Positions 5,677 through 13,517 of a stretch of DNA of 40,393 nt are shown one piece after another (position 1 is the first letter of the stretch; each line of letters opens with the position of its first letter). The stretch covers positions 1 to 40,393 of the forward strand of contig NZ_CALVGO010000008.1 of the NCBI RefSeq assembly GCF_944327125.1. The letters are read 5' to 3'. Under the pieces are notes generated by a model that saw nothing but the letters and a program-made list of their open reading frames with translations, was not told the origin of the DNA and ran no database searches. The position numbers were made by a program, and so were the translations under genes. Origin of the DNA: an uncultured Faecalicoccus sp. GTDB taxonomy: Bacteria > Bacillota_I > Bacilli_A > Erysipelotrichales > Erysipelotrichaceae.

Positions 5677-7923
5677 TTATAGATGATCGTGGCAAGTTCT
5701 GGCAATGACATCCAGCTGCTGTTCGCGAGTCAGGTCGATGAATTTTACCGCGTATCCACTGACACGAATCGTAAAGTTCTGGTATTCCTCTTTTTCCGGA
5801 TGTTCCATGGCATCTTTCAATTTTTCAACGCCAAATACATTCACATTCAAATGATGAGCTCCCTGATCAAAATATCCGTCCATAACATGAACAAGATTCT
5901 CTGCGCGCTCTTCATCATTGTGTCCTAAAGCACCTGGATTGATCGTCTGTGTATTAGAAATTCCATCCAATGCATATTCATATGGCAATTTTGCGACGGA
6001 ATTCAAAGAAGCCAACAATCCGTTTTTCTCAGCTCCATAGGAAGGATTGGCCCCTGGAGAAAGCGGTTCTCCCGCCTTTCTTCCATCCGGTAAAGTTCCT
6101 GTCGCTTTTCCATAAACCACGTTGCTGGTGATGGTCAAAATCGAAGTGGTCGGTTCACTGTTGCGGTATGTATGATGTTTACGAATCTTATTCATAAATG
6201 TCTTCAATAGCCATACCGCGATATCATCGGCACGGTCATCATCATTTCCATAACGTGGGAAGTCGCCTTCGATCTTATAATCTACCGCAATTCCATCTTC
6301 ATCACGAATCGGAGTCACCTTGGCATATTTGATGGCGCACAAGCTGTCTACTACATGAGAGAATCCGGCAATACCGGTTGCGAAAGTACGTCTTACGTCT
6401 GTATCGATCAATGCCATCAAAGCCGATTCATAATAGTATTTATCGTGCATGTACTGAATCAGATTCAATGTATTGACATACAAGCCGCTTAACCAGTCCA
6501 TCATAAGATCGTATTTATGCATGACTTCATCAAAATCCAACACTTCGCTGGTGATCGGCTTGTATTCCGGTCCTACCTGCATTTTGGTTCTTTCATCCAC
6601 ACCGCCGTTGATGGCATACAGCAGACATTTTGCCAGGTTGGCGCGGGCTCCAAAGAACTGCATCTCTTTTCCCGTCTGGGTAGCACTGACGCAGCAGCAA
6701 ACCGAATAATCGTCGCCCCATTCCGGACGCATCACGTCATCACTTTCATACTGTAAAGAAGATGTAGCCACGCTGACTTTCGCTGCGTATTTTTTAAATG
6801 GTTCTGGAAGACGGCTGGAATAAAGTACCGTTAGATTTGGTTCTGGACTAGGTCCCATGTTCTCCAGTGTATGAAGGAATCTAAAACATGTCTTGGTGAC
6901 CATATGACGGCCATCCATACCTAAACCGGCAACATCCAGTGTAGCCCATACAGGGTCTCCAGAGAACAACTGATTATAAGAAGGAATACGGGCAAACTTG
7001 ACCATACGGAATTTCATGACCATGTGATCAACCAGCTCCTGGGCCTTTTCTTCCGTCAAAGTTCCATTCTTCAAATCGCGTTCCATATAGATATCCAGGA
7101 ACGTTGAGATACGTCCAACAGACATGGCCGCCCCATTTTGTGTCTTAATGGCTGCCAGGTATCCAAAATATACCCATTGAACCGCTTCTTTGGCATTTTT
7201 AGCCGGCTGAGAAATATCATAACCATAAATGGCTGCCATTTCTTTCATATCCTTTAATGCCTGGATCTGATCCGCAATCTCTTCTCTTAAACGAATCACA
7301 TCGTCCGTCATCGTTCCATCCCCGCACAGGGAAAGATCCTTTTGTTTTTCTTCGATCAAAAAGTCGATTCCGTACAAGGCAACACGGCGGTAATCTCCTA
7401 CGATTCGTCCACGTCCATAAGTATCCGGAAGTCCGGTAATGATCTTGTTTTTACGAGCCATACGCATTTCCGGAGTATAGGCGCTGAATACGGCATCGTT
7501 ATGCGTTTTATGGTATTTGGTGAAGATCTCAGTGATCTTTTCACTTGGATGATATCCATAGGTTTCACAAGCTTCCATGCTCATACGAATTCCGCCGTAA
7601 GGCATAAACGCTCGTTTTAACGGTTTATCAGTCTGTAATCCAACGATCTGTTCCAGATCTTTCAGGTTTTCATCAATATAGCCTGGACCATACGCCGTAA
7701 GACTGGAAACAACTTCCGTTTCCATATCAAGAACACCGCCCTTGGCGCGTTCTTCTTTCTGGAGCTTCTGTAAAGCGTCCCATAAACGGTTGGTCGCTTC
7801 GGTCGGTTCTGCCAAAAAGGCTTCATCGCCATCGTAAGGAACATAGTTATTCTGAATAAAATCTCTTACGTTGACCTCTTCTTTCCATTTGGTTCCGGTA
7901 AATCCATTCCACTGTTCAAACAT
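5677..7923 (-). CDS. pflB: Pyruvate formate-lyase (formate C-acetyltransferase)
   Basis: PFL converts pyruvate and CoA to acetyl-CoA and formate by glycyl-radical chemistry in the cytoplasm. The 748-aa sequence carries the active-site cysteines in SVCCCVSAT (Cys409-411; E. coli uses an adjacent Cys pair) and the radical glycine Gly723 in RVSGYAVKF near the C-terminus. It also has [20 protein letters not shown] and [21 protein letters not shown] lies 7 nt before the ATG. The gene sits downstream of a ZTP-type riboswitch and a consensus promoter and is followed at once by pflA. A run of three cysteines instead of two is common in Bacillota PFL. Confidence 0.97.
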
Positions 7924-7949: not shown

Positions 7950-7995
7950 AAAAAAGCCAACCCCAGGCTTTGTCGGGCCCAGACGGTCGGCTCAA
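7950..7995 (-). terminator. Riboswitch-controlled terminator before pfl
   Basis: On the minus strand AGCCGACC...CTGGGC pairs with GCCTGG...GGTTGGCT, and TTTTTT follows at 7955-7950. The 5' arm uses the riboswitch core GCCGACCGTCTGGGC, so ligand binding and termination compete. Confidence 0.8.
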
Positions 7996-8045
7996 ATTAC
8001 ACTTATACTTCACGTGGTCTATTCCACTGGTCCCGTCAGTCATAT
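7975..8045 (-). promoter_or_regulatory. ZTP riboswitch (pfl motif)
   Basis: The minus-strand leader contains the hallmarks of ZTP/ZMP-sensing RNA: ACTGACGGGACCAGTGGA, the short hairpin GTGG...CCAC, then GAAGTA, and after a variable loop the pseudoknot core GCCGACCGTCTGGGC. The motif was named for its association with pfl genes. ZTP accumulates when 10-formyl-tetrahydrofolate is scarce, and formate made by PFL feeds one-carbon metabolism. The overlapping terminator indicates an ON switch acting on transcription. I place the boundaries by eye. Confidence 0.85.
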
Positions 8046-8056
8046 AAGGTGATTTC

Positions 8057-10559: not shown

Positions 10560-10635
10560 GCCTGAATAGCTCAGTCGGTAGAGCATCCGGCTGTTAACCG
10601 GCAGGTCACAAGTTCGAGTCTTGTTTCAGGCGCCA
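10560..10635 (+). tRNA. tRNA-Asn (GTT), CCA encoded
   Basis: The acceptor arms GCCTGAA/TTCAGGC pair perfectly. The D-arm (AGCTCAGTCGGTAGAGC), anticodon loop CTGTTAA with anticodon GTT, T-arm (GTTCGAGTC) and a genomic CCA complete the cloverleaf. Its last 14 or so bases are repeated at 12407 and 13464, making this gene the insertion site of two tandem elements. Confidence 0.97.
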
Positions 10636-10640
10636 TTGCA
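10622..10640 (+). repeat. att-like core copy 1 (tRNA-Asn 3' end)
   Basis: TGTTTCAGGCGCCATTGCA, identical to the copies at 12407 and 13464. This copy is the functional tRNA 3' end. Similarity with copy 2 continues for about 76 bp, through the terminator. Confidence 0.85.
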
Positions 10641-10644
10641 TATG

Positions 10645-10700
10645 AACACTTTCTTGAAATGCTTTAAATAAAGGCAAATTGAGAAAGTGTTTTTATTTTT
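10645..10700 (+). terminator. Terminator after tRNA-Asn (copy 1)
   Basis: ACACTTTCT (10646-10654) pairs with AGAAAGTGT (10682-10690), then TTTTATTTTT. It is repeated almost exactly at 12430. Confidence 0.8.
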
Positions 10701-10707
10701 ATGCACA

Positions 10708-10727
10708 TTCGCCACATTTTCACCACA
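10708..10727 (+). repeat. Left arm-type repeats of cassette 1
   Basis: TTCGCCACA at 10708 and TTCACCACA at 10719 are direct repeats 11 bp apart. The same word recurs at the right end of the cassette. Confidence 0.55.
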
Positions 10728-10818
10728 GAACCATTTGTTTCTGAATGTTATTAGTAGTTATAATAATCTACATTTTAAATCGACACAATCATATTTATAT
10801 AGAAGTAACAATATTGTG

Positions 10819-10877
10819 GTAGACTTTAAAAGTAGACTTTAAAATAGACTTAAGGTATACTTTATAAGGTATACTTT
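10819..10877 (+). repeat. Five TAKACTTTA repeats upstream of the AlbA_2-type gene
   Basis: GTAGACTTT (10819), GTAGACTTT (10832), ATAGACTTA (10844), GTATACTTT (10855) and GTATACTTT (10869) are spaced 11-14 bp, about one helical turn. The array ends 21 nt before the start codon, where a promoter must lie, so it is a likely operator array. Confidence 0.7.
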
Positions 10878-10898
10878 AAATGAAATGAGGTGAACGTT

Positions 10899-12203
10899 AT
10901 GAATCTCGGTATCGAGAATGAATATCAAGAATTTAAAGAAGGGTTAGGCCAGCTTGATAAAGGCTTGAAATCAATTGTAGCCATGCTTAATAAGCATGGT
11001 CAAGGCACTGTATATTATGGTGTAAAAGATGATGGAAATGTATGTGGAATTTCTATAGGCAAAAACACTTTAATGGATATACGAAATAGAATAAGAGATA
11101 AGATTGAACCTCGAATTTATGCAGATATTCAAGAATTGATAGATGAAACTAATAGAAAATATATTAAAGTTTTTGCTAGAGGATATGATATACCATATTC
11201 ATTTGATGGAAGATATTATATCCGTAATGTTTCAGCAGACGAACATGCATCAAATGAGATTTTGAGAAGAATGCTTTCTACTTCAGATTCTGATATTTTG
11301 CGTCAAAAGTCATCTCCTAATCAAAACCCTACTTTTAATTCACTTTTCGCCATATTAGCAGGCAACGGAATCCATCCAAGTGCTACAAGAGAATTTTACT
11401 CAAATTACGGTTTGATAAACAGAAATGGTAAATTCAACATGAATGCCTACTTATTATCCGATAGGAATTCTATTTCTTTAAAAGTTATTACCTTTGAAGG
11501 AACTGATAAGAGCGTAATGTCTAAAAGAACTGAATATGGAGGAAAATGTCTGCTTATTTCTATCTCGGAAGTTATGCAATTTTTTGAAACTATAAATATA
11601 ATGAAAGTGAATCTAAATAATACAATAAGAGAAGAACTTCCTTTATTTGATTTTCCTAGTTTTCGAGAAGCTTGGATTAATGCCTGCTTACACAATGATT
11701 GGAAAAACGAAGTAGCACCTTCCATTTACTTATTTGATGATCGTATCGAAATAGTTTCATATGGTGGTCTTCCCTTTTCTTTATCAAAAGAGGGATTTTA
11801 TCAAGGGACTAGCGTTCCAGTCAATAAAAGCTTGTTAACGATTTTCATGGCAGCCAAATATGCCGAACAAAGCGGCCATGGAATTCCAACTATCGTTGAA
11901 AAATATGGCAAAGAAGTATTTTCTTTTGATGATGGGATGTTGAAGGTAACAATTCCATTGGCTTTTGATAGACCCGATGTTGCAACTAGAAAAAATATAG
12001 TTTTATATAAAAATGGATTAACTGAAAATCAGAAAAAAGTATATGACGCTTTAAGCCATGATGGTAATTTATCGCTCCAGAACGTTGCGGATAAAGTAGG
12101 AATTAGTCTTGGAGCAACAAAAAAGATTTGTGCTAAACTTCAAAATCTCGGAATTCTGAAAAGAGTGGGATCACGGAAGAAAGGTCAATGGATAACAAAG
12201 TAG
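10899..12203 (+). CDS. AlbA_2 (Schlafen-like) / HATPase_c_4 / winged-helix protein, cassette cargo
   Basis: The product has 434 aa. Residues ~1-125 form an AlbA_2 domain (ENEYQEFKEG, SIVAMLNKHGQGTVYYGV, DDGNVCGI), and a linker follows. The C-terminal half has a GHKL-like ATP-binding fold (WINACLHNDW, IYLFDDRIEIVSYGGLP, AEQSGHGIPTIVEKYG). It ends in a winged helix (TENQKKVYDALSHDG...LQNVADKVGIS...GILKRVG). Family members are annotated as transcriptional regulators or ATP-dependent DNA-binding proteins, and some occur in defence islands. The ATG at 10899 follows GAGGTGA; GTG 10890 is less likely. The stop codon lies within the downstream repeat array. Autoregulation through the flanking repeats is my inference. 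Confidence 0.8.
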   Translation: MNLGIENEYQEFKEGLGQLDKGLKSIVAMLNKHGQGTVYYGVKDDGNVCGISIGKNTLMDIRNRIRDKIEPRIYADIQELIDETNRKYIKVFARGYDIPYSFDGRYYIRNVSADEHASNEILRRMLSTSDSDILRQKSSPNQNPTFNSLFAILAGNGIHPSATREFYSNYGLINRNGKFNMNAYLLSDRNSISLKVITFEGTDKSVMSKRTEYGGKCLLISISEVMQFFETINIMKVNLNNTIREELPLFDFPSFREAWINACLHNDWKNEVAPSIYLFDDRIEIVSYGGLPFSLSKEGFYQGTSVPVNKSLLTIFMAAKYAEQSGHGIPTIVEKYGKEVFSFDDGMLKVTIPLAFDRPDVATRKNIVLYKNGLTENQKKVYDALSHDGNLSLQNVADKVGISLGATKKICAKLQNLGILKRVGSRKKGQWITK

Positions 12204-12243
12204 ACTTTAAAAGTAGACTTTAATTATACTTTAAATATACTTT
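12200..12243 (+). repeat. Four TAKACTTTA repeats downstream of the AlbA_2-type gene
   Basis: GTAGACTTT (12200), GTAGACTTT (12213), TTATACTTT (12224) and ATATACTTT (12235) are spaced 11-13 bp. They have the same orientation and word as the upstream array, so the gene is bracketed. Confidence 0.7.
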
Positions 12244-12268
12244 ACGAAAGCCGAATCCATTAAAATTT

Positions 12269-12288
12269 TTCACCACAAACTCACCACA
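12269..12288 (+). repeat. Right arm-type repeats of cassette 1
   Basis: TTCACCACA (12269) and CTCACCACA (12280) are 11 bp apart, 127 bp before core copy 2. The same offset (128 bp) is seen in cassette 2. Confidence 0.55.
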
Positions 12289-12406
12289 TTTTTAGTCAGA
12301 TTCGTATCAATTTGTATCGATTTATAAGCACAATGAAATTCAAAAAGTCCTTTTAAATAGCTGTTATCGGCGTATATCAATCTGTTTTAATATTTATCGT
12401 TCGTTG

Positions 12407-12425
12407 TGTTTCAGGCGCCATTGCA
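12407..12425 (+). repeat. att-like core copy 2 (junction of the two cassettes)
   Basis: TGTTTCAGGCGCCATTGCA. The similarity to copy 1 includes the whole tRNA terminator, but the tRNA body is absent. Confidence 0.85.
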
Positions 12426-12429
12426 TATG

Positions 12430-12485
12430 AACACTTTCTTGAAATGCTTTAAATAAAGGCAAATTAAGAAAGTGTTTTATTTTTC
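12430..12485 (+). terminator. Duplicated tRNA terminator (copy 2)
   Basis: ACACTTTCT (12431-12439) pairs with AGAAAGTGT (12467-12475), then TTTATTTTT. It would end transcripts of cassette 1. Confidence 0.75.
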
Positions 12486-12500
12486 CAAAAATTCGCCAAA
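12481..12500 (+). repeat. Left arm-type repeats of cassette 2
   Basis: TTTTCCAAA (12481, degenerate) and TTCGCCAAA (12492) are 11 bp apart. Confidence 0.45.
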
Positions 12501-12604
12501 AAGCATTTTTAGCTATTTACTTTAATTTTCTAAATAGCAAAAATTATGAAAAATAGTAATCAAAATGTTATAATAAATACACAGAAAGATGAGGAGGAAT
12601 GAAA

Positions 12605-12775
12605 ATGAAAGCTGTTTTGATGCCAGTGACTGGAAAAGCTGCTAATACTTTTGAACGTGTCTTGAATAAACCTAGTGTTGGTAAAAAGCTTTCTGCTCAG
12701 CAACGAGAGCTCATTGCCAAATCTATTCAATTAAATTCAAAACATGGAAGAAAAACTTCAGTTAGTAAAATTTAA
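12605..12775 (+). CDS. Small basic protein, candidate antitoxin to the GNAT enzyme
   Basis: This 56-aa ORF starts MKAVLMPVTGKAANTFERVL and ends KHGRKTSVSKI. GAGGAGG stands 7 nt before the ATG; the in-frame ATG at 12599 is too close to it. The last 32 nt overlap the start of the acetyltransferase gene, the usual order and spacing for an antitoxin-toxin operon. The sequence is basic, with a predicted helix around SAQQRELIAKSIQL. I see no clear ribbon-helix-helix motif like the DUF1778 antitoxins that pair with known GNAT toxins, so the role is inferred from context only. Confidence 0.6.
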   Translation: MKAVLMPVTGKAANTFERVLNKPSVGKKLSAQQRELIAKSIQLNSKHGRKTSVSKI

Positions 12776-13316
12776 TAAAGACAATTATCCAGATTATGCA
12801 TCCTGTATTTTGGAATTTAAGTCTAAGAGATTCTCTTCTGGAGAATCTTTTTTAAAAGAATGCTCATGCTATTTGGATGATGAATTAAGATACGCCATAT
12901 ATTTGGTAGTCATAACCTACGATGATAAAGAACCAGAGATCGTTGCATATTTCGCTCTGTCTTCATCATCTGTTTTTTGGATAACGCAAAGCATCTATCC
13001 TACCTATAATCCTTGTGCTGAATTATCTTATTTTTCATTAAATGATAGTTTTTCCACGTTTGAAGGTCACGGGATAGGGTTAGGCAGACAAATCTTCATT
13101 GACTTTATTTTACCTACAATAATAAATATAAGTAAAAAAATCGGGATTAGTTATATAACCTTGTTTTCTTTACCAAACAATAAAGTAATACAGGCATATA
13201 AAGATATGGGATTTAACCTTATGCCTCAAGAAATAGAAGAATATATTCGCTATTATGAAGTAAAGAATTGCAAATTAATGGTATATAACCTAAAGGATTA
13301 TTCTGTAGGATCTTAG
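12744..13316 (+). CDS. GNAT-family N-acetyltransferase, possible toxin
   Basis: The product has 190 aa. The acetyl-CoA binding loop is GHGIGLGRQIFIDFILP (residues ~109-125; Q/RxxGxG/A type), preceded by the strand ELSYFSLNDSF. A later GNAT segment reads ISYITLFSLPNNKVIQAYKDMGF (helix after the N, typical of motif B). It overlaps the small basic ORF by 32 nt and is the second gene of cassette 2. Similar two-gene GNAT modules are toxin-antitoxin systems that acetylate aminoacyl-tRNA, and the cassette sits at a tRNA. The target here is unknown, and an ordinary small-molecule acetyltransferase is possible. GTG/TTG starts farther downstream lack better signals. Confidence 0.75.
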   Translation: MEEKLQLVKFNKDNYPDYASCILEFKSKRFSSGESFLKECSCYLDDELRYAIYLVVITYDDKEPEIVAYFALSSSSVFWITQSIYPTYNPCAELSYFSLNDSFSTFEGHGIGLGRQIFIDFILPTIINISKKIGISYITLFSLPNNKVIQAYKDMGFNLMPQEIEEYIRYYEVKNCKLMVYNLKDYSVGS

Positions 13317-13324
13317 CCTCCTTT

Positions 13325-13344
13325 TTCGCCAAGAATTCGCCAAA
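13325..13344 (+). repeat. Right arm-type repeats of cassette 2
   Basis: TTCGCCAAG (13325) and TTCGCCAAA (13336) are 11 bp apart, 128 bp before core copy 3. Confidence 0.55.
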
Positions 13345-13463
13345 TTTTTAGTTAGGTTCACATCAATCGATAACCACTTATATTGGTTATACAGTAATAA
13401 AAATACCCTTATAATGGTGGATACTTGTCTGTAATGTTTTAAAATTTTTCGCTCTGTTCGTAA

Positions 13464-13482
13464 TGTTTCAGGCGCCATTGCA
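13464..13482 (+). repeat. att-like core copy 3 (right end of the tandem array)
   Basis: TGTTTCAGGCGCCATTGCA. Downstream sequence diverges from copies 1 and 2 after AATGAACACT, as expected if this is the original chromosomal side. Confidence 0.85.
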
Positions 13483-13486
13483 AATG

Positions 13487-13517
13487 AACACTCTGGAAAC
13501 AGGGTGTTTTTATTTTA
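13487..13517 (+). terminator. Terminator next to core copy 3
   Basis: AACACTCTG pairs with CAGGGTGTT around GAAA, then TTTATTTT. It is probably the original tRNA-Asn terminator before insertion. Confidence 0.75.

Follow-up and report, generated by a model that had tools for sequence, protein, structure and literature searches.

In the parts of PMC12839542 that were available, proteins composed of a Schlafen RNase domain, a minimal histidine kinase (GHKL) domain and a wHTH are described near BREX, with reference to a preprint of 2025 that deals with the part of bacterial Schlafens in defence against phages. The domain order of these proteins is the same as that of the protein studied here. Unlike theirs, the gene here is solitary and lies outside a BREX locus, and putative operator arrays and bracketing arrays such as those found with it receive no mention in those parts of the description. 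RptR represses its own promoter via three direct repeats (PMC12255303), and BldC multimerises head-to-tail on direct repeats (PMC5859096). Both are like the system proposed here in having direct repeats in the promoter, but they are of other folds and sizes and have no second, bracketing array. The element that holds the gene resembles CIMEs in its att-like repeats at a gene 3′ end, absence of integrase and transfer genes, tandem accretion and ICE-derived ends, and it falls at about the lower end of their published size class of 1.2–13 kb (PMC5704250, PMC7563491). Unlike a typical CIME, it consists of two very small tandem units (1.79 and 1.06 kb), the first of which has a single gene, and no ICE-type integrase is present in the assembly.

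The window, a 40,393-nt stretch of DNA from an uncultured Faecalicoccus sp., holds the features collected in Table 1. Elsewhere it carries a class B RNase P RNA (600–930) and a ZMP/ZTP riboswitch (7970–8053, - strand).

Table 1. Coordinates of the AlbA_2-type gene, its repeat arrays and the element at tRNA-Asn in the window.
Feature	Position	Strand	Remarks
tRNA-Asn(GTT), integration target	10560..10635	+	ARAGORN, Rfam
Left att direct repeat of unit 1: tRNA 3′ end and hairpin/T-run	10622..10699	+	78-nt repeat, 96% identical to 12407-12484
Remnant of ICE integrase gene 3′ end (FCGENVANVHKNKNTFS)	10680..10730	-	Holds arm-like repeats TTCGCCACATTTTCACCACA (10708-10727)
Upstream array, five phased units	10819..10878	+	Last two units, TATACTTTA; proposed operator
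SLFN_AlbA_2 - HATPase_c_4 (GHKL) - winged-helix protein, 434 aa	10899..12203	+	Frame stays open back to GTG 10890
Downstream array, four phased units	12200..12244	+	Orientation as upstream; stop codon in first repeat
ICE-type right end; arm-like repeats TTCACCACAAACTCACCACA at 12269-12288	12267..12412	+	92% identity over 146 bp to right end of F. pleomorphus element
Att repeat shared by unit 1 and unit 2	12407..12484	+	78-nt direct repeat
Unit 2, tandem 1.06-kb element without integrase	12407..13464	+	56-aa ORF (12605-12775), 190-aa ORF (12744-13316)
Terminal (third) att core	13464..13492	+	97% identical over 29 nt

The Pfam domains SLFN_AlbA_2, HATPase_c_4 and HTH_24 score above their cut-offs in that order, which bears out the AlbA_2 domain, ATP-binding domain and C-terminal winged helix named in the original prediction. 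NCBIfam gave no match above cut-off, and PADLOC gave weak matches only, mostly to the wHTH part. In the predicted structure (mean pLDDT 86.9) the N-terminus matches the tRNase/DNA-binding domains of SAMD9 (Z 11) and SLFN N-domains, so that the AlbA_2 part is closest to SAMD9 and SLFN tRNase domains, and the C-terminus matches winged helices of the MarR/ArsR type. The model also matches 3lmm over its length with a Z of 20 and an rmsd of 15.8, and because of this rmsd the match is counted domain by domain. Two candidate active-site acids, E6 and E11, do not vary among 44 homologues and are spaced as in SLFN nucleases. The gene is under strong purifying selection (dN/dS 0.04–0.16). A defence role of this protein may be presumed from its family membership.

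The repeat TAKACTTTA occurs in nine exact copies on the + strand of the window, eight of which lie in two clusters of four; 300 first-order Markov resamplings gave a mean of 0.29 copies per window and a maximum of 2, with no cluster larger than 1. The upstream units start at 10820, 10833, 10845, 10856 and 10870 (spacings 13/12/11/14) and the downstream units at 12201, 12214, 12225 and 12236 (spacings 13/11/11), all on the + strand. The original prediction of nine repeats around the gene, five before and four after, on the same strand at 11–14 bp, is confirmed with the qualification that one upstream unit is imperfect: the unit at 10845 is TAGACTTAA, with one mismatch, and the other upstream units are exact. 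Its placing of the stop codon within the first downstream copy also holds, since TAG (12201–12203) forms the first three bases of that unit. The two arrays are helically phased in one orientation about 1.38 kb apart and have the exact 24-mer GTAGACTTTAAAAGTAGACTTTAA in common. The fifth upstream unit is a 14-bp tandem duplication that is absent from two sister species.

The original prediction had proposed that homologues be inspected for flanking repeats, and the inspection found upstream arrays to be general in the family, across genera and phyla, and downstream arrays to belong to one subclade. Upstream chains of at least three units precede 43 of 80 homologues, compared with 3 of 285 other genes at the same loci (Fisher 5e-30) and 10 of 1800 Markov controls; about half of the homologues have fewer than three chained upstream units by the strict scan. 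Downstream chains follow 10 of 74 homologues versus 2 of 282 other genes (P 4e-6). Homologues that are 73–77% identical, in other genera and at other loci, carry arrays of the same word, and those of 38–43% identity carry other words at the same 11–12-bp step. At 31–35% identity, repeated words such as TGTCGGTA or GGTGACA are often seen by eye near the promoter. The words differ by clade (GTAGACTTTRA, GTATAGAATAAA, GTAGCAAATAAA, GTGTTGAATAAA, GTAAGGAATAAA). On a protein tree of 77 rows, 49 of them classed by hand-written word patterns and 28 without a class, the five word classes can be placed with 4 changes, the lowest number possible, where shuffling of the labels gives 28.4. Since homologues at other loci carry arrays, the arrays belong to the gene and not to the site, and the possibility that they are part of the tRNA element was ruled out. 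Within the genus, strict array patterns match only at the gene's own locus; likewise, in 44 further gene-carrying genomes the arrays lie at the gene's locus only, and 26 of the 44 give no match at all. On this ground a regulon was rejected for these genomes, as far as the strict patterns reach. No operator arrays of AlbA_2 genes were found in a literature search of partial coverage. At one homologous locus (L079, 5373–6950) the gene with the arrays is immediately followed by another AlbA_2-type gene, which is of a different sort, and by eye an HsdS-like gene lies upstream.

The cognate word thus co-varies with the protein, and it sits at the protein's promoter. In L109, L121 and L130, TTGACA and TATAGA, separated by about 17 nt, lie around a unit within the array, and in many word-A homologues TGGTATACT is found in the last unit, nearest the start. 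In the window itself, promoter scores do not rise above chance; a sigma-70-like 9/12 match, TAGACT-17-TATACT at 10833–10861, is of a kind that occurs at chance frequency in this region. Autoregulation is simpler than the other readings, given that promoter-like elements fall within the upstream array, and sequence comparison points most readily to a Schlafen (AlbA_2)-GHKL-winged-helix protein that regulates itself through a cognate operator array. The strongest part of the proposed mechanism is that protein molecules would bind head-to-tail on the phased upstream units, over the promoter, and would hold the expression of the gene low (autorepression) until release by a signal, possibly one acting through the ATP-binding domain. 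The downstream array would be a second copy of the operator, in this subclade only. The original proposal that the protein binds the repeats at its own gene gains strong comparative support, in that the arrays follow the gene and the word tracks the clade.

The gene and its arrays are the sole content of unit 1 (10622–12407, 1.79 kb). At the left end of the unit the last codons of an integrase gene are kept (GENVANVHKNKNTFS, - strand), and the integrase adjoining tRNA-Asn in F. pleomorphus, which has an Arm-DNA-bind_4 domain, ends in the same tail, GENLAKMHKNKNTLS. The comparator for the right end is the element on the tRNA-Asn contig of F. pleomorphus. Direct repeats resembling attL and attR are thus kept at a conserved target tRNA-Asn, recombination and transfer genes are absent inside unit 1, and derivation from an ICE is indicated by the integrase-gene tail on the left and the ICE-like right end. 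No ICE-type integrase was found in this assembly; the only two PF00589 proteins are on other contigs, have SAM-like N-domains and lack the arm domain (Xer-type). The element is called a CIME because its tRNA att repeats, its lack of an integrase and its ICE-derived ends match the published definition (PMC5704250, PMC7563491). Its ends and content establish, at the level of sequence, that this integrase-less element of 1.8 kb between tRNA-Asn 3′-end repeats has no cargo other than the array-gene-array block. Such an element would need an incoming ICE integrase to move.

F. acidiformans has unit 1 at the same tRNA with 98–100% identity nearly throughout, the only dips being at array differences and near the gene 3′ end, and the two copies of the gene differ by 7 synonymous and 1 non-synonymous changes. 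Outside the unit, identity is about 65% in the flank and below 60% by about 12550. Unit 2 is absent from F. acidiformans at this site. Within unit 2 the 56-aa ORF overlaps the 190-aa ORF, and the two could be a toxin-antitoxin-like pair. The 190-aa ORF is GNAT-like by eye (HGIGLGRQIF, NNKVIQAYKDMGF) and has no Pfam match; only remote relatives occur, in 2 of 196 family genomes. The related integrative element on the F. pleomorphus tRNA-Asn contig (L275, 2345–13875) is a likely restriction/defence island, with a Vsr-like endonuclease, a helicase and a DNA methyltransferase as cargo by eye, and its right att core is interrupted beside transposase-like genes. In F. pleomorphus C20 (L038, reverse-complement 5980–6205) the AlbA_2 unit comes after another element, whose right end bears arm-like repeats, an arrangement that is tandem accretion too.

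The block itself also behaves as a cassette at other loci. In five rabbit-gut Bacilli genomes (L090–L094) it has 83–96% DNA identity, and the homology ends at the outer edges of the arrays or a few bases from them, beyond which the neighbourhoods differ; in L093 the downstream array has been lost. Homology of the window and F. acidiformans with F. pleomorphus likewise stops where the downstream array ends, and the gene stands alone in 13 other, unlike neighbourhoods. Exceptions are L080, L082 and L084, where homology extends tens of bases past the arrays. In L074 the cassette separates mfd from rqcP; 11 relatives have these two genes side by side (about 0–80 bp), and three other relatives have a longer gap that holds no AlbA_2 homologue. 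In G074, where a neighbouring gene is 91% identical to that of the L075 host, the orthologous position has a single unit (AAGTATACTTTAACT), and the contig stops soon after it with no gene in between. Exact words of 24–46 nt are common to the upstream and downstream arrays on the same strand in the window, L072, L074, L077, L090, L091 and L094; words shared in reverse complement are at most 13 nt. With the downstream array in place, the block is flanked by direct repeats and would be the unit spread between hosts; recombination between the arrays would lose the gene and leave a solo array behind. Solo arrays with no gene nearby were found in 3 of 395 genomes. The left side of one of them, in L170, matches the upstream array of L091 and its right side the downstream array of L091. 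The solo-array evidence is matched by site only in part, at G074; for L090–L094 a site-matched empty site was not found, the solo array in G334 having different neighbours. The analogy is with the generally known solo LTR-type deletions, where direct repeats flank the gene and solo repeats stand elsewhere, as here; unlike LTR elements, the block has no recombinase or reverse transcriptase, and its repeats are putative operator arrays. We hold with moderate confidence that the array-gene-array block was transferred as such a unit among gut bacteria unrelated to each other, and with low confidence that the arrays themselves may actively cause the transfer. In L090 (217–1672) two stretches of about 60 nt that resemble each other flank the cassette, beside cas2-like genes and a repeat array, by eye a CRISPR locus. 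A second array match in G571 was rejected, being the same gene continued across a contig break.

Taken together, the reading of an autorepressed gene with cognate arrays, transferred as an array-gene-array block and carried here as the cargo of a CIME, is in our judgment probable. Alternatively, the downstream array may be functionless, a passive duplicate of the operator that is kept similar by gene conversion or recent duplication. Downstream arrays occur only in the word-A subclade and the rabbit-gut set, bar one or two doubtful exceptions, and their presence is patchy, with 6 changes on the protein tree, as a passive duplicate would allow. L076, L081 and L087, where the array is lost or reduced and only AAGTAGA around the stop is left, point the same way, as do L077 and L094, where the similarity of the two arrays within a locus clearly exceeds that between loci. 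The excess is not clear in Faecalicoccus, and concerted evolution as a general pattern was tested and is clear only in these two loci. Many members of the subclade lack the array or have it in reduced form, so that it is not essential. Nevertheless, it occurs in members of both Bacillota and Spirochaetota, it lies where the transferred DNA ends, and it is conserved in all three Faecalicoccus copies, which argues against a mere passenger. We regard this alternative as possible and give it real weight.

A stronger version of the cassette reading sees a minimal mobile element of one gene, with the arrays as its functional ends. Its protein would bind both arrays and would itself promote excision and insertion or recruit host recombination for them; the operator would then be the transposition end, and solo arrays would be scars or targets. 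This stronger version is speculative and seems unlikely.

The original prediction had suggested another role, in which protein bound to both arrays bridges them and loops the gene, to silence it or to sense invading DNA. Two phased arrays in the same orientation about 1.38 kb apart would suit such a loop, as would a protein that combines an ATPase-type domain with a winged helix for DNA binding. However, most homologues have the upstream array only, and a loop is therefore not needed for the function of the family. No phage target with arrays turned up apart from two isolated pairs and a contig on which the gene itself lies; such pairs are rare among viral contigs and uninformative. Looping-out, silencing by looping and sensing of invaders find no support here, and the bridging role is quite doubtful. 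It is very improbable that the arrays are iterons or a centromere through which a plasmid-like element replicates or is partitioned, as in ParR/parC or TubR/tubC. Direct repeats of 11–12 bp over an autoregulated promoter are typical of such sites, and the protein has a winged helix, but the gene is a lone one in chromosomal contexts with no Rep, ParM or TubZ partner, and Pfam, PADLOC and NCBIfam gave no match to replication families. An accident of sequence, to which the AT-richness of the region might incline one, is ruled out with near certainty by the Markov controls, the comparison with neighboring genes and the word classes that track the protein tree.

The CIME, with its att-like tRNA repeats, ICE-derived ends and second tandem unit, and the cassette behavior, with arrays that coincide with the edges of transferred DNA, both go beyond the original prediction and tell more than the repeats alone. 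Proteins of the Schlafen-GHKL-wHTH type are found widely and have been connected with phage defence, and the question they pose is how a protein with a nuclease fold stays quiet. For an autorepressed gene with cognate arrays, a clade-specific operator word that can be read from the sequence offers a testable control circuit for dozens of homologues, together with a prediction of specificity. If the array-gene-array block is the unit of transfer, a defence-type gene would bring along its own control region and recombination handles, and this would explain the spread of a lone gene across phyla.
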